Below, piece by piece: positions 21,064-43,344 of a stretch of 64,000 nucleotides of DNA; position 1 is the first letter of the stretch, and every line of letters begins with the position of its first letter. The stretch spans positions 27,903-91,902 of the IMG/VR virus record IMGVR_UViG_3300047548_000496; one strand, written 5' to 3'. The notes under the pieces are model-generated. The model was not told the origin of the DNA, ran no database searches, and saw nothing but the letters and a program-made list of their open reading frames with translations. The position numbers and the translations under genes were made by a program. Origin of the DNA: a virus.

Positions 21064-23658
21064 ATGGCTATTATACAAATTTCAAAAATCCAACAAAGAT
21101 CCGGAAACTTAGTCGATCTACCACAACTTGATGAAGCTCAATTTGGTTGGGCTACAGACGCTAAGAAATTGTTCATTGGTAAAACCACAGGAAACATAGA
21201 AAATATTGAAGTATTAACTAGTTATTCCAATATTAGTTTCAGCCAAATTGATGGGTCTGACGGCGGCAATTTTAATATTAGCAACGCTACTAATGGACAA
21301 ATACTGACATATGTAGAGTTAACAAATACTTGGGAGAATTGGACAGGAAATGCATCTCAACTAAGTAATTCAAAAATACAATTAGGTGATGTTTCAAACA
21401 TCAGTATAGAAGGCGGCGCAACTGGCTATGTCTTAGAAACAGATGGTGTAGGTAATCTTGCCTGGACAAGTAAGGGAACATTAAGGTCGGCCATTTATGG
21501 GTTATCAAATGCAACTCCCATAATAATGACAGTTGAAAATACTACTCCATATACAAATAAATTACCAGTTACTATTAGTGGCGCAAATGCAGATAATGCT
21601 AACTCAATTGTAAATGGACAAACCTTCTTTGTTAAACTATCAGTAGATTTCCCTACAACTGGAAATGTTGAATTATATACCTCCTCTAATTTAGATATGG
21701 CTAATGCGGCAGTAGGTACAGGGTTAAACAACTATGTTTCAAATTCAGGTATAGCAACTGCACTATTAAGTGCTGGGGTAGTACCCAATGCAGGCGGCTC
21801 CGTCAATACTATACAGTTTAATAACAGTGGAATATTAGACGGTTCGGCAAACTTTACTTTTTCTGGTGGAAACTTAGTAACATTGAATGGTAATCTTATT
21901 GCTGGTAATGTGAACGGTGGAAATCTAGTATCAGCAAATTACGTTTCGGGTGTGTTGACTACAGCATCACAACCTAACATTACTGCTACTGGTGTATTAG
22001 CAAATTTAAGTATTAGTGGCAACATCAATGTTGGGGATATAAATGTTTCTGGTAATATAATACCCACTGCAAATGTAACTTATAATTTAGGTAATTCTAC
22101 TAACGCATTTAAAGATTTGTATCTTTCTGGTACAAGCATTTCACTAGGAACGCAAACAATAACGTCAAACGTTAACGGAGTAATATTATCTAATACAGTT
22201 TTTGCATCTGCTTTAAGTATAACCGGTAATGCAGATATTGGAAATATTAATACTAGTGGCACAATAAGTTCTACTGGTACTGCTACAGTTGGTAATTTAA
22301 GCACAGGTGGCACAATAACTTCTACTGGTACTGCTACAGTTGGTAATTTAACTACTAGTGGTACAATAACTTCTACCGGTACTGCTACAGTTGGTAATTT
22401 AACTACTGGTGGTACAATAACTTCTACTGGTAATATTGCCGGTGGAAACTTAACAACAAATGGAAACGTAACGGCTAATAACATTTCTGCTACTGGTAAC
22501 GTTACCGCTGCAAATTTTATCGGATCAGGTAATGGATCTCCTACTATTAATAGTGCAAGCACTTTAACTATTTCTGCTAATTCAGGGGTGACATTAGGCA
22601 ATGTTACTATTTTATCTACTGGCTCCAATACTACCGCAGGAACAATTGTTGGTAATTGGACGTTAGATGGAAGTTTTAATGCATCAGGTAATTTGGGTAC
22701 ATCTGGTAATTTGAGTTCAACTGGTAATTTAAATATTACTGGTAACATGACAATTGCTACGAGTCCTGTTTTAAATAGTAAATTTGGTGTAATATCTTCT
22801 GGAAGATTATTGGGAGTATACACTAATAGAGTCGGTATTGGTAGTTATTATGCTGATTATAATGGTACTAATGATATTACATCTGCTGATGCTACTAGCG
22901 TAAGTAGACTAGGTACTATTTTGGATACCGGAATAGCTTCATCAAATACTTCTGTTGCATTCGGTACCAGTTACGGCAGCAATCCGGCAGGTCTAGCATT
23001 TGTTTCTGGTACTGCACAGGACGTACTTAGAATCGCTACTGGTTTACCGCCTACTTATACGGGAAATATCAATGCTGTTTTATTGGGGTACCCCAGCGGT
23101 GGACCAAGAATTCTAGTGCAGAATTATGCACTTGTCGATGATTCACCGAATACTATCACTCATGTTGCTACTACACATAAATTTGTAGGAGAATTATCAA
23201 CAACAAATATTACAACCGGCGCAAACACGACCGCAGGAAGTTTGACAGGAAATTGGACATTAACAGCAGGATCTCAATTACAAGCAACATACGCTGACTT
23301 GGCTGAATATTACGAAGCTGATGCTACTTATGAACCAGGAACAGTTTTAGAATTTGGCGGACTAAAAGAAGTTACATTAGCTGAAGATGAAACAACTAAA
23401 GTAGCAGGTGTTGTTTCAACCAATCCGGCTTATGTGATGAATACCAACTGTAAAGGGTTTGCCGTAGCTATTGCTCTGCAAGGAAGAGTTCCAGTAAAAG
23501 TTAAAGGCAATATAAAGAAGGGTGATATGATGGTTAGTGCTGGTGATGGATTTGCAAGACCCACAAATAGCCCTAAATTAGGTACTATCATAGGAAAAGC
23601 ATTGGCTGACTTCAATGGAATTGAGGGTATAATAGAAATTGCTGTAGGAAGATTGTAA
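21064..23658 (+). CDS. long repetitive tail fibre protein
   Basis: 864 aa. The N-terminus (ISKIQQRSGNLVDLPQLDEA, FGWATDAKKLFIG, ENIEVLTSYS) is the virion-attachment module of T4-like aquatic phage fibres. The middle is a beta-helix-like Gly/Asn/Thr repeat region; residues 400-470 contain three to four 17-residue repeats (T-I-T-S-T-G-T-A-T-V-G-N-L-T-T-G-G) encoded by near-identical 51-bp units. The C-terminus (YADLAEYYEADATYEPGTVL to GIIEIAVGRL) is a domain found at the end of many phage fibres. It should bind the host surface. The gene is late. Confidence 0.88.
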   Translation: MAIIQISKIQQRSGNLVDLPQLDEAQFGWATDAKKLFIGKTTGNIENIEVLTSYSNISFSQIDGSDGGNFNISNATNGQILTYVELTNTWENWTGNASQLSNSKIQLGDVSNISIEGGATGYVLETDGVGNLAWTSKGTLRSAIYGLSNATPIIMTVENTTPYTNKLPVTISGANADNANSIVNGQTFFVKLSVDFPTTGNVELYTSSNLDMANAAVGTGLNNYVSNSGIATALLSAGVVPNAGGSVNTIQFNNSGILDGSANFTFSGGNLVTLNGNLIAGNVNGGNLVSANYVSGVLTTASQPNITATGVLANLSISGNINVGDINVSGNIIPTANVTYNLGNSTNAFKDLYLSGTSISLGTQTITSNVNGVILSNTVFASALSITGNADIGNINTSGTISSTGTATVGNLSTGGTITSTGTATVGNLTTSGTITSTGTATVGNLTTGGTITSTGNIAGGNLTTNGNVTANNISATGNVTAANFIGSGNGSPTINSASTLTISANSGVTLGNVTILSTGSNTTAGTIVGNWTLDGSFNASGNLGTSGNLSSTGNLNITGNMTIATSPVLNSKFGVISSGRLLGVYTNRVGIGSYYADYNGTNDITSADATSVSRLGTILDTGIASSNTSVAFGTSYGSNPAGLAFVSGTAQDVLRIATGLPPTYTGNINAVLLGYPSGGPRILVQNYALVDDSPNTITHVATTHKFVGELSTTNITTGANTTAGSLTGNWTLTAGSQLQATYADLAEYYEADATYEPGTVLEFGGLKEVTLAEDETTKVAGVVSTNPAYVMNTNCKGFAVAIALQGRVPVKVKGNIKKGDMMVSAGDGFARPTNSPKLGTIIGKALADFNGIEGIIEIAVGRL
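22261..22440 (+). repeat. 51-bp tandem repeats in tail-fibre gene
   Basis: Units start at 22261, 22312, 22363 and (diverging) 22414. The first three differ by only a few bases over 51 bp. They encode 17-residue repeats and could change copy number by slippage or recombination. Confidence 0.85.
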
Positions 23659-25988: not shown

Positions 25989-26000
25989 TTGTCCATTTCT

Positions 26001-26017: not shown

Positions 26018-26071
26018 CTCTTAATTCTGAGAGTTTATGCGGTCCCCGCCGCGTAGTGGAATAGAACCCAC
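26018..26071 (+). promoter_or_regulatory. structured 5' leader with three small hairpins
   Basis: Within the late-mRNA leader: CTCT/AGAG (26018-26033), GCGG-TCCCCG-CCGC (26039-26052) and GTGG-x8-CCAC (26056-26071), followed by AAGGAG and the ATG. Stacked short hairpins before a strong ribosome site may protect the RNA or tune translation. Confidence 0.45.
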
Positions 26072-26092
26072 ATATCAACAAGGAGAAAACAA

Positions 26093-27109
26093 ATGGGACG
26101 TCCTTTAAAAATCGCTAAGGCTCAAGCAGTCTTAACAATCACAGATACAACAGCAGCAACAGATACAGTTACAGTATCTCAAGATATTTCAGCACCACCA
26201 ACAGGTGTTGGCATTATTGCAGGTATGCCATTTGTAGTTGCATCAAACGTTGGTGGTCTAACAGCTAACACAACATATTGGGTTTTAGAAGTTATCGATG
26301 CTAATAATTTCACAGTTTCAGCAACTGATTTAAGTGCAAATAGAACTCGCACACCAGTATCATTGTCTGACACAACATCTCAAACAGTCTCCGCTTCCGT
26401 CGGTGTAGTTGACGCTTATTTCAACAATCCAAACGGTGGCGCAGGTTTCCCAGCAACAAACGCTAACACATACAGTGTAGTTGGTGGTAATACAGCTATT
26501 ATTGGTCCACAAGTACTAGCACGTGTTGCTATTGCACAAAATGGTGTAGGTACAATTACAGTAGCCGACGATAGTCCAAACATCACTGGTGTAGGTACAG
26601 ACTTTGCTAACACGTTGACAGATGGAACAGTAATTACAACAGCAGATGGCACATTATTAGGTTATGTAACTGATATCGCTAATGCTAACGCTACATTTGC
26701 TACGTTTGCAGCTAACAGCTTGTCTAATGCTACAAATGTGAGTTTCGTATTTGCTAACAATGAAGCAGGATTTATTGTTCGCCAAAAAGGTAAACAGAAA
26801 TATCTAGTACAAGGTACAACTTCAGGTTTAGTTGGCGCTTGCTTTACAGCTAACCTAGCTAATGCTGATTTATATCCAGGTACTATGAACATTGTTGGTA
26901 CATATGCTAATGCTGCTACAGAAAACGTACAGTCATTAAGCGATCACAATGCAGAATTGTTTACAGCAACCTCTGGCATAACAGCACTGCCAAACGAAAC
27001 TGCAAACATCAATAATAGCTCACCAGCATACAGCACGTTCAACACTGCTTACGATGCTGATACATACGGTGGTCAACCATACCCAATCGTAACTATTTCT
27101 AATGCATAA
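26093..27109 (+). CDS. virion structural protein (338 aa)
   Basis: MGRPLKIAKAQAVLTITDT, followed by Thr-, Val- and Ala-rich beta sequence with little charge. The N-terminal block is one I associate with structural proteins of T4-like aquatic phages. Codon use is regular, and the ribosome site AAGGAG is strong after a long leader, suggesting high expression. It may be a head-decoration or fibre-type protein; its place in the particle is not known. Confidence 0.7.
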   Translation: MGRPLKIAKAQAVLTITDTTAATDTVTVSQDISAPPTGVGIIAGMPFVVASNVGGLTANTTYWVLEVIDANNFTVSATDLSANRTRTPVSLSDTTSQTVSASVGVVDAYFNNPNGGAGFPATNANTYSVVGGNTAIIGPQVLARVAIAQNGVGTITVADDSPNITGVGTDFANTLTDGTVITTADGTLLGYVTDIANANATFATFAANSLSNATNVSFVFANNEAGFIVRQKGKQKYLVQGTTSGLVGACFTANLANADLYPGTMNIVGTYANAATENVQSLSDHNAELFTATSGITALPNETANINNSSPAYSTFNTAYDADTYGGQPYPIVTISNA

Positions 27110-30979: not shown

Positions 30980-31008
30980 TTGACAATAAATATGGTCTAT
31001 GTTATACT
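30980..31008 (+). promoter_or_regulatory. sigma-70-type early promoter
   Basis: TTGACA (30980-30985), 17 bp, TATACT (31003-31008). The first 12 bases equal those of promoters 1 and 2 (TTGACAATAAAT). The leader carries AGGAGA before the ATG at 31038. Confidence 0.88.
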
Positions 31009-31037: not shown

Positions 31038-32219
31038 ATGGCAACTCGTAAGCGTAATTCTGAGGATCACAGTCAAGTCAAAGCACTGAATCCCAAAAAC
31101 CCTGATACAAAGTACATGGGTGATGAGCCACTATTTGTCATTCAACCTGATAGCGACCGTAGAACTTCTGCACTAAGTAATGCATTCTCTTGGTATAATT
31201 GGTTCTATACTAAAAAAGACGCTAAAGAACTACTTTGTCAATACCTAGATTTCAGCAACCGCCAATCCGAGGCTAAAATTGTACGCCGTGTTGCTGATAG
31301 CGAAATCATTAACACATATTGCTGGCTAGCTAGGATGAAGCTACGTGGTTTGGAACTTAATGAACACGAACTTAGTACCCTCGAAAACGAAATTTCACGA
31401 CTTATTAAAGCTGTACACAAGCCTGAAGTCAAAGAAAGTATTACCTCTGTCACTAAGGAAGTAACAGAAGCACCTGCTCGTCCTAATATTCAGGACATTT
31501 TGCGTGAAAAAGCAAAAGATGCGGCAGGTGAACTTGAAGGCGTTTTTGATGACTTTATTCTAACTGGCAAAGCAAGTTCAAAAACAATGGACGTTGTTGC
31601 ACGATTTAATGTTATGCCACAGCACATCGGTTTGATTACTGAAATTTGGAAGAAAAAACAAAACGAATTTACAGAACTTCAAGGTGGCCTTGATAAACAA
31701 CTAAATGAAGGTTATAATTATCTGACAAAAATTCAGGTTCGCAACATCTTAAAATTTATCGATCAGGTACTTTCTGACCTCAATGCATATATCTCTGTCA
31801 AGAAAGCAAGCAAGGCCCCGCGCAAACGTAAAGAGGTTCCTGTTGAAAAGATTGTCAGCAAACTCAAATACCTCAAGGCATTTAAAGATGCCGCAAGCAA
31901 ACTTGACTTGGTTAGTATCAGCCCTGTAAAACTACACGGTGCAAGCGAATGCTATCTGTACGACACTACGAAACGCAAGTTGGTTTATTTGTGTGCTGAT
32001 GAATATAGCAAAACTTTTACAGTAAAGGGTACTAGTATTCTTGGTATTGACACAAGTAAAAGTCAGATCAAAACTTTACGGAAACCCGGAGATCAATTGG
32101 GTGCATTTTTGAAACTAGGTAAACCGGCCGGAAGAAAGTTTTTTGACGAAATTAAAGCAGCAGGTACTACACCTAATGGCAGAACGAATGAAAATATGAT
32201 TATTCTTAAGGCTTGGTAA
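31038..32219 (+). CDS. conserved hypothetical early protein (393 aa)
   Basis: Hydrophilic protein. Residues 50-130 form helices with conserved Trp and Tyr (FSWYNWFYTKKDAKELLC, TYCWLARMKLRGLEL). A central linker is Glu- and Pro-rich. The C-terminal part includes ASECYLYDTTKRKLVYL and FTVKGTSILGID, a compact beta domain. Basic patches (KAPRKRKE) suggest nucleic-acid contact. I do not know its function. It is made early from a strong promoter and is alone in its unit. Confidence 0.72.
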   Translation: MATRKRNSEDHSQVKALNPKNPDTKYMGDEPLFVIQPDSDRRTSALSNAFSWYNWFYTKKDAKELLCQYLDFSNRQSEAKIVRRVADSEIINTYCWLARMKLRGLELNEHELSTLENEISRLIKAVHKPEVKESITSVTKEVTEAPARPNIQDILREKAKDAAGELEGVFDDFILTGKASSKTMDVVARFNVMPQHIGLITEIWKKKQNEFTELQGGLDKQLNEGYNYLTKIQVRNILKFIDQVLSDLNAYISVKKASKAPRKRKEVPVEKIVSKLKYLKAFKDAASKLDLVSISPVKLHGASECYLYDTTKRKLVYLCADEYSKTFTVKGTSILGIDTSKSQIKTLRKPGDQLGAFLKLGKPAGRKFFDEIKAAGTTPNGRTNENMIILKAW

Positions 32220-32240: not shown

Positions 32241-32272
32241 CTCTCCTTATTTGATAAATAAAGTAAGGAGAG
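32241..32272 (+). promoter_or_regulatory. hairpin hiding a ribosome site, with a late promoter in its loop
   Basis: CTCTCCTTA (32241-32249) pairs perfectly with TAAGGAGAG (32264-32272), which holds the AAGGAG ribosome site of the gene at 32279. The 14-nt loop contains GATAAATA (32253-32260). RNA started at this late promoter (about 32266) would lack the 5' arm and be translatable. Confidence 0.7.
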
Positions 32273-32278
32273 TTTTTT

Positions 32279-33376
32279 ATGGATGAAATTATTAATATTC
32301 TGAATAAGTGTTCTTTTAAAGGAAAATATGTTACTGTAATTAAACAGGCTAATTTATGGCATTTGATAGAAAATAGCGTTGGTACTGTAGAAGTGTCCGA
32401 TCCAGAAAAAGTTTATTTGTATCTTAACCCTCTTGCGGAAATAACCTGTTCATCCGGTAATAAAAGGAAGTTCAAAGGTGTCCGAATCGGGTACAACTTA
32501 TATTGTGAAAATAAAAAATGCGATATTTGTAATACAAAGAAAAAGCAGGCAGTTAAACAAGGTGTATTTGAAAAATATGGAGTAGACAATGTAGGAAAAC
32601 TACAATCAGCGATTATTAGTAGAGATAAATTTTGGAATGACAAATCTGCCATCGAAGATGCTAATAGTAAAAGAAAACAAACTAATTTGACAAAATATGG
32701 ATGCGAGAATGTTTTTCAGAATGAAAAAATTAAAGAAAATATTAAAAACCTATTCATAGAACGATACGGAGTAGAAAATCCGTCACAATCAGAAATTATT
32801 AAGGAAAAAAAGAAAAATACTTTGACCGAGAATTACGGAGTTCCTTTTGGGCTACAATCACCTATAATCAAAGAAAAAATAAAGACTACGAATACTCGTA
32901 AATATGGCGTTCCGCATATTATGCAGGTTAACGAAATAAAAAATAAAATGATTGCAACCAAAATAGCAAAGGGCTCTTTTGGAAAAAGTAATTCTTCAAT
33001 AGAGGCTACTACCTACTTCAAAAACTATATAAAGACAAAGGGATACAATCTATCACAGGTAGCGTTTAATGATCCTAAAAATGGATTGTATGAATGGGGA
33101 TTCAGGTTCGATAGATGGTACTTGTTTGATTTTGTTGCTTTTGAATTAGGTCATAGAGGAGACTATAAAAAAATTATAGAAATAATAGAATATCACGGAC
33201 CATTCCACTATACAGAATCCGATGTGATGATTAGGGGATCTGAAAAAGCCTATCCATGGAAATCTAATAATACTACAATTTTAGAATCTTACCAAAGAGA
33301 TATACAAAAACAGGAATATGCTGTAAAATATCTTACTACAAACTACAATGTTATATGGAGCGAAAATGACAAGTAA
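32279..33376 (+). CDS. putative homing-type endonuclease with KYG-V repeats
   Basis: 365 aa. Residues 85-230 hold about five 25-residue repeats, each starting K-Y-G-V (or R-Y-G, N-Y-G) and then x2-x-Q-x3-I-K-E-K, which look like DNA-reading modules. The C-terminal domain has FDRWYLFDFVAFELG and IIEIIEYHGPFHY, the D ... E-x-H pattern of Vsr-like or PD-(D/E)XK endonucleases, followed by W-x-S and a basic end. A CxxC pair (CDICNTKKK) lies before the repeats. The layout is that of a selfish free-standing endonuclease. Its expression is guarded by a hairpin. Confidence 0.72.
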   Translation: MDEIINILNKCSFKGKYVTVIKQANLWHLIENSVGTVEVSDPEKVYLYLNPLAEITCSSGNKRKFKGVRIGYNLYCENKKCDICNTKKKQAVKQGVFEKYGVDNVGKLQSAIISRDKFWNDKSAIEDANSKRKQTNLTKYGCENVFQNEKIKENIKNLFIERYGVENPSQSEIIKEKKKNTLTENYGVPFGLQSPIIKEKIKTTNTRKYGVPHIMQVNEIKNKMIATKIAKGSFGKSNSSIEATTYFKNYIKTKGYNLSQVAFNDPKNGLYEWGFRFDRWYLFDFVAFELGHRGDYKKIIEIIEYHGPFHYTESDVMIRGSEKAYPWKSNNTTILESYQRDIQKQEYAVKYLTTNYNVIWSENDK

Positions 33377-34005: not shown

Positions 34006-34196
34006 GATATGGATATACTCCCAGAAAGACAGTAGTACATCCCTGGGAGCGTTGGTTTGCGTGGTATCCTGTCAAAGTGCATGGAAAACGTACATGGTTA
34101 AAGATAGTATACCGTCGTTGTATTAATACCTATGTTGATATGGAGGACTGGGAACGATACGAATATGGAAATGTATTTGATTTGCTAAAGGACTGA
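34002..34196 (+). CDS. small basic protein, paralogue of the 9689 gene (64 aa)
   Basis: Contains HPWERWFAWYPVKVHGKRTW, L-K-I-V-Y-R-R and Y-G-N-V-F-D-L-L, the same frame as the 73-aa protein at 9689-9910. Function unknown. It is the last gene before a hairpin and the gp13 late promoter. Confidence 0.65.
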   Translation: MRYGYTPRKTVVHPWERWFAWYPVKVHGKRTWLKIVYRRCINTYVDMEDWERYEYGNVFDLLKD

Positions 34197-34225
34197 TTAC
34201 CTGATAAATACATTATCAGGTAATC
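34195..34225 (+). promoter_or_regulatory. 13-bp perfect inverted repeat around the gp13 late promoter
   Basis: GATTACCTGATAA (34195-34207), ATACA, TTATCAGGTAATC (34213-34225). GATAAATA (34203-34210) spans the 5' arm and loop. Read-through RNA would fold and cover the weak AGG ribosome site of gp13; RNA started at the late promoter (about 34216) would not. Confidence 0.7.
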
Positions 34226-34229
34226 CATT

Positions 34230-35030
34230 ATGTCTATACCATCAATAACACCAAACATTCTTTCTACTCCCAATGGCATGACATTGGAAGAGCTAAAACA
34301 AGGATTATTTCAAAATCTACGTTATCGTTTAGGTGACGGAATCATCGACTTAGAATTAGATCCGCAACATTTTGAAGCGGCGTTTAACTATGCTATAAAA
34401 GTATATCGTCAAAGAGCGCAAAACTCTACCGCAGAATCATATACCTTGATGACAACAATCAAGGATATTGACACATATACATTGCCACAAGAATTTATTA
34501 ACGTCAGAGCAATTTTCAGACGTACAGTTGGTCTTGAGACAGGCCCTAGTTCTACTAGCTTTGACCCATTCTCAAGTGCTATTCTAAACACATACTTACT
34601 CAATTACAACTGGGCTGGCGGTATGGCAACATACGATTTTTACGCCGGCTATGTTGAATTAGCTGCACGTATGTTCGGTGGATATGTCATCTACACTTTT
34701 GATCCTGTAACAAAAGTATTGCGTATTGTTCGTGACCCGAAAGGAACAGGAGAACGTGTTCTAATATGGGCGGACGTTCAAAGACCTGAAATTGTACTAT
34801 TACAAGATCCAGGAGCAGGTGTTTGGATTGGTGACTTTACATTAGCAACACTAAAGATAATCATCGGTGAAGCCCGTGAGAAGTTCGGAACAATCGCTGG
34901 TCCAGGCGGCGGCACAACACTAAACGGTACAGCCATGAAGTCAGAAGGAACCGCCCTACAAGCACAATTAATTGACGAACTCAAGCGTTACGTTGATTAC
35001 AGTCAGCCGTTAACTTGGGTCCAAGGTTAA
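34230..35030 (+). CDS. neck protein, gp13-like
   Basis: 266 aa (T4 gp13 309 aa). It contains LKQGLFQNLRYRLGDGIIDL, E-L-D-P-Q-H-F-E-A-A-F-N-Y-A-I-K-V-Y-R-Q-R-A, YTLPQEFINVRAIFRR, and near the end ATLKIIIGEAREKFGTIAG with G-G-T-T-L-N-G-T, all features of gp13 in T4-like aquatic phages. It forms the head-tail connector ring with gp14. It is separated from gp14 and gp15, which lie about 3-6 kb upstream on the other strand. Confidence 0.8.
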   Translation: MSIPSITPNILSTPNGMTLEELKQGLFQNLRYRLGDGIIDLELDPQHFEAAFNYAIKVYRQRAQNSTAESYTLMTTIKDIDTYTLPQEFINVRAIFRRTVGLETGPSSTSFDPFSSAILNTYLLNYNWAGGMATYDFYAGYVELAARMFGGYVIYTFDPVTKVLRIVRDPKGTGERVLIWADVQRPEIVLLQDPGAGVWIGDFTLATLKIIIGEAREKFGTIAGPGGGTTLNGTAMKSEGTALQAQLIDELKRYVDYSQPLTWVQG

Positions 35031-35053
35031 CCTAAACACTTTTCTTTGTCACG

Positions 35054-35086
35054 CTCCTGTCATAGAATAAGTATCTCTGACAGGAG
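35054..35086 (+). promoter_or_regulatory. hairpin hiding the dNMP kinase ribosome site
   Basis: CTCCTGTCA (35054-35062) pairs perfectly with TGACAGGAG (35078-35086), which contains the ribosome site CAGGAG. The loop contains TAGAAT (35063-35068), a possible sigma-70 -10 box with only a weak -35. Late read-through from gp13 would be silenced; a local early start would not. Confidence 0.62.
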
Positions 35087-35093
35087 TTTCCAT

Positions 35094-35723
35094 ATGATTT
35101 TAGGTGTAACTGGACGTATAGGTTCTGGCAAGGATACAATTGCAGATTATCTATGTACATTTCACGGATTTAAAAGAGTTAGTTTTGCAGCGTCATTGAA
35201 AGATGCTGTAGCAGCAGTGTTTAATTGGGACAGAGAATTGCTTGAAGGGTCTACTAAATCAAGCAGAGAATGGCGAGAACAAATAGACGAGTGGTGGTCT
35301 GACAGACTAGGAATGAATATTACTCCTAGATGGGTTCTTCAATATTGGGGTACAGACGTTCTTAGAAACAATTTTCACAGTGATATATGGGTTGCTAGCG
35401 TAGAAAACAAACTACGAACTACTAAAGACAATATAGTGATAACCGACTGCCGTTTTGCTAATGAAGTCGAAGCGATCAAAAGAGCAGGCGGAATTACTTG
35501 CAGAGTTGAGCGCGGTGAACTACCCGAGTGGTACCAATATGCCATAGATCATAATAAAGGCCCCTCACATGTGGGCTGGTCATTAGGAAAATCTCGCCTT
35601 GACAAACTAAAAATACATGCTAGTGAATATTCTAGTGTTGGTCTAGAATATGATTATTATATTGATAACAATAATACTATTGACGATTTACACAAACAAA
35701 TCAACTCAATAATCAACTTCTAA
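35094..35723 (+). CDS. deoxynucleoside monophosphate kinase, gp1-like
   Basis: 209 aa (T4 gp1 241 aa). P-loop GRIGSGKDTIADYL near residues 8-20; R-V-S-F-A-A-S-L-K-D-A-V follows as in gp1 (L-A-x-P-I-K-D-A-L). Also WVLQYWGTDVLRNNF, then NIVITDCRFANEVEAIKRAG, matching the gp1 D-x-R-x-x-x-E region. It phosphorylates dNMPs for phage DNA synthesis. The start at 35094 is set by CAGGAG 7 nt upstream. It is convergent with an HNH-like gene, overlapping by 18 nt. Confidence 0.86.
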   Translation: MILGVTGRIGSGKDTIADYLCTFHGFKRVSFAASLKDAVAAVFNWDRELLEGSTKSSREWREQIDEWWSDRLGMNITPRWVLQYWGTDVLRNNFHSDIWVASVENKLRTTKDNIVITDCRFANEVEAIKRAGGITCRVERGELPEWYQYAIDHNKGPSHVGWSLGKSRLDKLKIHASEYSSVGLEYDYYIDNNNTIDDLHKQINSIINF

Positions 35724-36050
35724 GTCACCTCTGCGCCAGGTAACTTCTTTTTTCTTTACAACCTCAACGCAGTTTAGACAGATACTACGTAGATTGGTAA
35801 ACTTACAGTTATCTAAGTTTCCGTCAATGTGAAACACTGTAATTTGAGTAGGTAGTACACTTTTAAAGCCACATAAATCACATGTGGCTTTTTTCTTATA
35901 TCCTGCAGCCTGCCACCTAGAAGTTCTAGGTTTTTGTTTATTCTTTTTGCGACCACATTCATCACATATACTTCTATAGTGGGTAGTCCCGTTACGCACA
36001 TAATTTATAGCACAAAGATTTTTGTTACAGTGCTTACATATTGGTCTCAT
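35706..36050 (-). CDS. HNH-like zinc protein, reverse strand (114 aa)
   Basis: Four CxxC-type pairs (ICKHCNKN, ICDECGRK, CDLCGFKS, CLNC) frame Q-I-T-V-F-H-I-D-G-N-L-D-N and F-T-N-L-R-S-I-C. This is the His-Asp-Asn layout of an HNH nuclease of the type widely shared in T4-like aquatic phages. The start at 36050 (MRPICKHC) follows a late box GCTAAATA by 4 nt; an ATG at 36092 would add 14 residues. Role unknown; nuclease activity is likely but not certain. Confidence 0.72.
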   Translation of the reverse strand: MRPICKHCNKNLCAINYVRNGTTHYRSICDECGRKKNKQKPRTSRWQAAGYKKKATCDLCGFKSVLPTQITVFHIDGNLDNCKFTNLRSICLNCVEVVKKKEVTWRRGDLEVDY

Positions 36051-36054
36051 GTTA

Positions 36055-36062
36055 TATTTAGC
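36055..36062 (-). promoter_or_regulatory. possible T4-type late promoter
   Basis: GCTAAATA on the reverse strand, 4 nt before the ATG at 36050. Confidence 0.4.
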
Positions 36063-36108
36063 AACTAACCTTCGAAGGTACGGTAAACCCATTATTTTTT
36101 CATTTTTA

Positions 36109-42089: not shown

Positions 42090-42536
42090 ATGGGTAACTG
42101 GGCACAAGGGACATTTGCTCCCAAGAATCCTGAAAAGTATGTAGGCAAACATGCTCCAAGATATCGTAGTGGCTGGGAACTAAGAGTAATGATGTTTTTA
42201 GATGAAAATAAACACATCAATCATTGGGCTAGTGAAGCGATATCCATTCCTTATAGAAACCCATTAACCGGGAAACTCTCAAGGTACGTACCTGATTTTT
42301 TTGTAGTATACGAAAATAAATTTCACCAGATGAAGGCAGAAATTATTGAGGTTAAACCAAAAAGTCAAACTTCATTAAAAGAAGCAAGAACAAGACAAGA
42401 TCAAGCACATGCTATAGTAAACCAGGCTAAATTTATGGCTGCAATGGCTTATTGCAAACAACATGGTTATGTTTTTAGAGTTATAAGCGAGGATTCTATT
42501 TTTATGAATACCAAAAGTAATCCTAAAAAGAGATAA
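42090..42536 (+). CDS. head completion protein, gp4-like
   Basis: 148 aa (T4 gp4 150 aa). F-A-P-K-N-P-E-K-Y-V-G near the start, then YRSGWELRVMMFLDENKHI, W-A-S-E-A-I-S-I-P-Y, RYVPDFFVVYEN and EIIEVKPKSQ. The E ... P-D ... E-V-K set is the nuclease-like core of the gp4 (gp50/65) family. T4 gp4 finishes DNA-filled heads before tail joining. Starts directly at the previous stop codon. Confidence 0.92.
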   Translation: MGNWAQGTFAPKNPEKYVGKHAPRYRSGWELRVMMFLDENKHINHWASEAISIPYRNPLTGKLSRYVPDFFVVYENKFHQMKAEIIEVKPKSQTSLKEARTRQDQAHAIVNQAKFMAAMAYCKQHGYVFRVISEDSIFMNTKSNPKKR

Positions 42537-42539
42537 ATA
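42532..42539 (+). promoter_or_regulatory. T4-type late promoter
   Basis: GATAAATA at the end of the gp4 gene, 61 nt before the HNH gene. Confidence 0.62.
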
Positions 42540-42544
42540 AAAGT

Positions 42545-42574
42545 GTAGTTCGCGGAATGGGGATTCCCAACTAC
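42545..42574 (+). promoter_or_regulatory. structured leader of the HNH endonuclease gene
   Basis: Outer stem GTAGTT / AACTAC and inner hairpin GGAAT-GGGG-ATTCC within the late leader, followed by AAGGAG and the ATG at 42601. The compact fold may tune translation of the endonuclease or mark its mobile 5' border. Confidence 0.5.
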
Positions 42575-42600
42575 TCTAACGCTACAAGGAGCAATCAGCA

Positions 42601-43344
42601 ATGATATTTATCAATAACCGCTATACAGCAATCTATTATAGAATAATTGAAAATTCAATTCAACAAGAATCTACAAAGGATGGTAAAGAACGCCATCATA
42701 TAATACCTGAGTCATTTTTTATTAATAGGTCACGTCCGGGCCCGAAAGGTTGGCTAACCGGTAATCCCGAAGATTGTTCTAATATAGTATTTTTAACTCC
42801 ACGTGAACATGCTTTTTGTCATAAATTACTAGTACGAATGACAATAGGAAAAATGAAATCTAAAATGATTCTAGCAATTTGGCGAATGTTGAATAGTAAA
42901 CACACAAAGTTGTTTTCTTCAAAAGATTATGAAAAGTATAGATTATTGTTCATTGATGCAATCAAAGTTATGAATACCGGGAAAAGAAAACCTTTAAGCA
43001 ACGAACATAAATCAAATATATCAAAATCATCTAAAGGGACTCCTAAGACTGATCTCGCAAAAAACAACATGAAATTAGCATGGACGTCAAGGGATAGAAC
43101 AGTAAAACAATCTACTAGGGAACTTAACAGAATTGCTAGTAATAGATATTGGTCTTCTGATGAGGCGAGAAAAGTCCAGTCTGAAAAAAGAAAACAATTT
43201 ATCCACTCAAATCCTTCCATAATAGATGACCAAATAAAAAATCTTAACAAATTAAGTAAGTGTGAACATTGTGATAAAACTATGAATCTTGGAAACTATA
43301 AAAGATGGCACGGACCCAAATGTAAACTAAATAAACTACTATGA
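42601..43344 (+). CDS. HNH homing endonuclease
   Basis: 247 aa. The HNH core is ERHHIIPESF, then NIVFLTPREHAFCHKLLVRM (N ... H-x3-H). A NUMOD3-like DNA-binding motif follows (LSNEHKSNISKSSKG), and a C-terminal zinc pair C-E-H-C ... H-x3-C. It sits between gp4 and the probable small terminase gene, a head-gene junction where such elements insert without damage. It probably spreads by cutting DNA of related phages. It overlaps the next gene by ATGA. Confidence 0.88.
   Translation: MIFINNRYTAIYYRIIENSIQQESTKDGKERHHIIPESFFINRSRPGPKGWLTGNPEDCSNIVFLTPREHAFCHKLLVRMTIGKMKSKMILAIWRMLNSKHTKLFSSKDYEKYRLLFIDAIKVMNTGKRKPLSNEHKSNISKSSKGTPKTDLAKNNMKLAWTSRDRTVKQSTRELNRIASNRYWSSDEARKVQSEKRKQFIHSNPSIIDDQIKNLNKLSKCEHCDKTMNLGNYKRWHGPKCKLNKLL

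Follow-up and report, generated by a model that had tools for sequence, protein, structure and literature searches.

The question raised by this locus is how a gene of nucleotide metabolism can be expressed from a promoter of its own directly behind a structural gene of a virus. In the window (the whole stretch of viral DNA that was analysed, 64 kb in length, part of a 91.9-kb viral fragment), a deoxynucleoside monophosphate kinase gene of the T4 gp1 type (35094–35723, + strand; Pfam PF21448, E 8e-12; phrog_139, E 4.6e-50) follows a gp13-like/head-tail adaptor Ad2 gene (34230–35030, + strand; phrog_211, E 1.9e-21), and no terminator between the two was listed in the promoter and terminator scans. 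The sheath and the kinase of the window resemble jumbo-phage counterparts; among the relatives with the kinase are contigs 260 and 364 kb long, in cultured jumbo phages the gene just 5' of the kinase carries the annotation neck protein or head-tail adaptor Ad2, and for PA5oct, a cultured relative, detection of the kinase by mass spectrometry is indicated.

The kinase leader contains an inverted repeat: CTCCTGTCA (35054–35062) and TGACAGGAG (35078–35086) are perfect complements over 9 bp, and the pair G35053–U35087 extends the stem to 10 bp. The 5' arm is GCTCCTGTCA (35053–35062, + strand); the 3' arm, TGACAGGAGT (35078–35087, + strand), holds the ribosome site, i.e., the Shine-Dalgarno sequence AGGAG (35082–35086, + strand), 7 nt before the ATG (35094–35096). 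The loop, TAGAATAAGTATCTC (15 nt, 35063–35077), begins with TAGAAT (35063–35068, + strand), a -10 box that aligns with TATAAT, TACAAT or TATACT of relatives. The preliminary description had placed a hairpin with TAGAAT in the loop and a covered ribosome site at 35054–35096, and inspection of the sequence found it as described. Folding of the RNA 35040–35110 gave −18.2 kcal/mol (z −2.7; 2 of 200 shuffles equally good), and after shuffling of the 5' part of the leader the native stem score was reached in 0 of 100 cases. The stop codon of the gp13-like gene lies 22–23 nt 5' of the 5' arm, so ribosomes terminating there should not melt the hairpin. No match to Rfam 15 at gathering score was found for the hairpin; the only match in the window was the freshwater-2 RNA (26018–26095).

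The promoter elements were located as follows: CCTAAAC, an upstream promoter element at a fixed distance to the -10 box and largely independent of the upstream gene, 35031–35037 (+ strand); -35 region TTTTCTTT (family consensus TTTACTTT), 35040–35047 (+ strand), 17 bp before the -10 box; expected transcription start 35074–35077 (+ strand), as placed by the general sigma70 spacing of ~6–9 nt after the -10 box. CCTAAAC, TTTACTTT and TATAATAaGTA are common to the leaders of the family, with a constant -35/-10 spacing of 17 bp; when 65 distinct leaders were aligned on their -10 box, TTT at -23 to -21 and TTT at -18 to -16 were 77–97% conserved. By its sequence the promoter of the kinase leader is of sigma70 type. 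Taken alone, the window copy (TTTTCT/TAGAAT) is a weak sigma70 match and does not appear among the sigma70 sites that the scans reported; its assignment as a putative promoter rests on the conservation within the family. Promoters of the form TTGACA-17-TATAAT recur before small genes in these phages, and the kinase promoter is similar to them in kind.

For comparison, 118 distinct kinase leaders were collected from viral contigs (80 kinase-relative loci and two further scans). In 82 of the 118 the ribosome site was covered by a strong stem; 77 of these 82 also had a recognisable promoter and a Shine-Dalgarno sequence, and the -10 box lay inside the hairpin in all 77. The other 36 of the 118 fell below the threshold of stem score, and several of them still have shorter or interrupted stems. 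In an alignment of 30 leaders with a 9-bp stem, 97.8% of the cells were paired, changes on both sides were seen in 6 of 9 pairs, the covariation score was reached by 0 of 500 shuffles, and partners slid by 1–3 columns paired to only 35–49%; like the other counts of this comparison, these are not independent of phylogeny. Non-Watson-Crick cells of the stem comprised 44 G-U and 6 A-C (38 and 7 in the first count), an excess which indicates that the folded strand is that of the mRNA sense. Variable among the leaders are the loop (3–21 nt), the stem (8–18 bp) and the distance to the ATG. An arm-swap test was discarded, the arms having been selected for pairing. As evidence that the hairpin is real, the comparison of leaders outweighs every statistic drawn from a single sequence.

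On a midpoint-rooted tree of the kinase, leaders with the hairpin were found on both sides of the root. The module accompanies the kinase even where another gene lies upstream: at 31 of the 77 loci the co-directional neighbour was not recognised as gp13. In the cultured jumbo phages Phosso, PA5oct, CBB, 121Q, XaC1, GAP32 and SNUABM_50 the module was absent in its kinase form; the cultured jumbo relatives lacking the arrangement are at 44–51% protein identity. Eight leaders have no ribosome site, and all eight are also without the hairpin; 7 of the 8 have a clear -10 box 9–10 nt from the ATG, which implies a near-leaderless RNA. These eight fall in one clade of 12, within which at least three changes are needed; the association of hairpin and ribosome site was judged by this tree count, and a Fisher test, which ignores phylogeny, was not relied on. 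The joint loss of hairpin and ribosome site constitutes natural evidence that the hairpin targets the ribosome site.

We consider it likely, on balance, that the kinase leader acts as a gate that admits translation only from the gene's own promoter. RNA started upstream, at the late promoter of the gp13-like gene or, if transcription reads through from there, at the early-type promoter at 30980, would carry both arms; the hairpin would then pair the Shine-Dalgarno sequence, and loading of the 30S subunit would be blocked. A sigma70-type polymerase would use the -35 region before the hairpin and the -10 box in the loop and would start the RNA at about 35075; such RNA would be devoid of the 5' arm, its ribosome site would be open, and the kinase would be translated only from its own promoter, when that promoter is active, despite the block of structural genes in which it stands. 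The predicted probability of the Shine-Dalgarno sequence being unpaired, calculated for 58 relatives, rose from a median of 0.001 in read-through RNA to 0.706 in loop-started RNA and was higher in the latter in 57 of 58. For the leader identical to that of the window (L002) the predicted values were ~0.00 and 0.24, respectively; that the freed site is only 24% unpaired is attributed to weak pairing within the loop-started RNA or with the gene start.

The promoter is probably active early or middle: its type and the function of the gene, which follows one with a late box, suggest this timing. The preliminary description had taken the upstream gene as late, which agrees with a gp13/adaptor-like structural gene carrying its own late box, and had proposed that the hairpin insulates early from late by blocking late read-through translation and allowing early RNA. 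The insulation itself is retained, the Shine-Dalgarno sequence being covered, the -10 box lying inside the hairpin and loop-started RNA being without the 5' arm; the strict division into late and early is not, since an early-type promoter, TTGACA-17-TATACT (30980–31008, + strand), of the upstream gene 31038–32219 also points towards the kinase. Read-through is possible from the late and perhaps from the early-type promoter, and the gate is for this reason described as own-promoter-only rather than as strictly late-versus-early.

The scans for hairpins over ribosome sites drew on parts of the record that contains the window, and on five related records. In the 91.9-kb record 126 gene starts were examined, and stems of score at least 24 covering the Shine-Dalgarno sequence were found at four of them (0.18–0.35 expected): those of the gp13-like gene, the homing endonuclease gene, the kinase and, upstream of the window, a gene for a virion structural protein (phrog_1645). 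Three of these four strong hairpins carry or abut GATAAATA, and the kinase is the exception. The two further cases cited in the preliminary description, at 34195 and 32241, are real stems of 13 and 12 bp with GATAAATA inside. At the gp13-like gene the hairpin (34195–34225, + strand) covers the ribosome site and covaries in relatives (85.7% of cells paired, 46 double-change cells, 0 of 500 shuffles), and its late promoter box (34203–34210, + strand) is invariant in 35 gp13 leaders. At the homing endonuclease-like gene (DUF7487; 32279–33376, + strand) the hairpin over the ribosome site (32241–32272, + strand) contains the late promoter box at 32253–32260 (+ strand), is followed by TTTTTT and was scored as terminator-like.

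The same description had spoken of a general device for a mixed gene order and had advised a genome-wide search for promoters inside such repeats. The scans bear this out only in part: there are four strong cases, three of them at late boxes. In each genome the late-box form is seen at a few genes, and the sigma70 form is all but confined to the kinase; a 76-aa gene of the related record G005 is the one other candidate, and a weak one. In a search of related records with a covariance model for further copies of the module only kinase leaders scored well, all other matches having E 0.018 or weaker. The 76-aa gene (G005, 208511, − strand) has TTGACA-17-TATACT, the -10 box being within a 13-bp hairpin that adjoins the ribosome site. 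Another possible promoter-in-hairpin start was noted upstream of the window (L082, 1974–2030): late-like box GATAATAAATA, then hairpin TACCCGAG/CTCGGGTA with TATAAT in the loop and the ATG directly after it.

Hairpins that sequester the ribosome site, combined with a late promoter, are an established mechanism at T4 e, soc, 49 and I-TevI (PMC3014915, PMC2988022); the homing endonuclease genes I-TevI, I-TevII, I-TevIII, segB and Aeh1 mobE share the same hairpin anatomy with late promoters, and according to a review the genes under such control are all late genes (PMC2988022). The kinase leader resembles those of e, soc and 49 in that the ribosome site is in a hairpin and the promoter lies inside or adjoins the 5' arm; the sealing of read-through RNA and the open state of the gene's own RNA, as in those genes (PMC3014915), are predicted for it. 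It differs from them in its promoter: theirs are late promoters serving late genes on early or middle transcripts (PMC3014915), whereas the kinase, which functions in nucleotide metabolism and follows a late structural gene, has a promoter of sigma70 type. The hairpin at 32241 is of the same kind as those of the I-TevI type, and the kinase departs from the all-late rule (PMC2988022). As read from their sequences, the hairpins at 34195 and 32241 belong to the ordinary T4 type; the kinase, lacking a late promoter, is filed as a variant predicted to work like the T4 device and standing outside the late set.

An unlikely alternative, although the best placed of those considered, is that intrinsic termination is an additional or the main function of the hairpin, which would hold the next promoter inside it, the sealing of the ribosome site being secondary. 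A run of at least four T right after the stem was found in 32 of the 77 hairpin leaders; the spacer between the Shine-Dalgarno sequence and the ATG of the kinase in relatives is 60% T, vs 26–31% for other genes of these genomes, and contains TTTT in 51%, vs 1–3% of other genes. The TTTTTT and terminator-like score of the endonuclease hairpin at 32241, and a hairpin with T-tract 5' of the kinase in Xanthomonas phage XaC1, point the same way. Against this, 45 of the 77 hairpin leaders have no such T run, the window copy ends TTTCCAT, has no U-tract and was not scored as a terminator, and the eight leaders devoid of a Shine-Dalgarno sequence are devoid of the hairpin as well, which a pure terminator would not require. 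Intrinsic terminators are approached in about half of the relatives by a hairpin with a T-run, and they are departed from by a kinase stem that includes the ribosome site and the promoter box of the next gene. A pure terminator was rejected for the window kinase, there being no U-tract; in the relatives that have one, about half of them, termination may supplement the own-promoter-only gate.

Much less probable is the ordinary T4 late device, in which the box in the loop would be a late promoter, the kinase a late gene and early read-through the RNA that is blocked. T4 offers the precedent, and the adjoining gp13-like gene and the endonuclease gene use exactly this arrangement. The box at the kinase is, however, TATAAT-like with a -35 region at 17 bp and is not a gp55-type, TATAAATA-like box, and GATAAATA, the late box of the group, is absent from the kinase leader though present at those two genes. 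A late promoter in the loop was rejected on these grounds, i.e., no late box and a conserved -35 region.

Still less credible, and very improbable in our estimate, is a DNA operator, with a dyad around the -10 box binding a regulator and no RNA structure. Many relatives do show a near-perfect palindrome centred on the -10 box, but the loop length ranges over 3–21 nt and the arms change by compensation, and fixed spacing with conserved half-sites was not seen; the excess of G-U over A-C (44 to 6), the lack of the dyad in promoter-bearing leaders that have no ribosome site, and the search of related records, in which the module had no further match at E below 0.01, likewise speak against it. It was rejected for the variable loop and the G-U bias. 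That the inverted repeat is due to chance, or has some unrelated structural role, has a negligible claim. Short stems over ribosome sites do arise randomly (at score 20, 1.3–1.6 expected among 126 genes), but the conservation and covariation seen across 82 leaders, together with the leader shuffles, reject this reading.

Protection from read-through is also a property of IS10 and IS50, where RNA from the own promoter is translated and read-through RNA is folded over the ribosome site; there it shields a transposase from random outside transcription, whereas a phage gene stands in a fixed gene order. A literature search for an early-promoter version of the hairpin and for fold-back inhibition in insertion sequences gave nothing usable in the library searched. 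The occurrence of a deeply conserved sigma70 version directly beside the late version suggests that the device is about deafness to the transcription of neighbours and not about lateness. Tentatively, and with slightly more doubt than confidence, promoter-in-hairpin modules of these jumbo phages might be regarded as time-neutral insulators that take an own promoter of any class, let early and late genes be interleaved, can be combined with termination and can be exchanged for leaderless initiation; the latter, if exchanged for the gate in evolution, would likewise ignore read-through RNA. Such modules would explain how time classes are kept apart without terminators in phages of mixed gene order; the promoter-in-hairpin signature could be used to find genes of this sort, and the module could serve as a compact insulator for synthetic operons.

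Candidate leaderless sigma70 transcripts were noted elsewhere: a -10-like box exactly 6 nt before the ATG, with a -35-like box at 17 bp, occurs in the window at 2699, 13563 and 55654, and starts of the same type occur in the related records G003, G005, G006 and G008; genes for a DNA primase and for a DNA polymerase-like protein are among them.

Endonuclease-like genes are found around the kinase. A small HNH-like gene (35706–36092, − strand) is convergent with the kinase in the window and overlaps the end of its gene; an HNH-like gene at the same place was seen in 4 of 4 relatives examined (L026, L027, L060 and L077). In these four, which are separate lineages, an endonuclease-like gene (HNH type by eye) lies directly 5' of the kinase, where it replaces the promoter-hairpin module except in L026; in the latter it displaces the kinase module by ~1 kb, the hairpin being still visible at 1949–2009.

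The freshwater-2 RNA (RF02980, 62.2 bits; window 26018–26095) lies just downstream of the late box TGATAAATA at 26000 and ends at the ATG of the gene 26093–27109, which suggests that late phage genes have this orphan motif of Rfam as a leader. A dispersed repeat, AATAAAAGTGTAGTTCGCGG...CCCAACTACTCTAA.GCTA, with an internal dyad was found in the window at 42532–42612, upstream in the same record near 22826 (G000) and at G001:133316; it is possibly a mobile or structured element.
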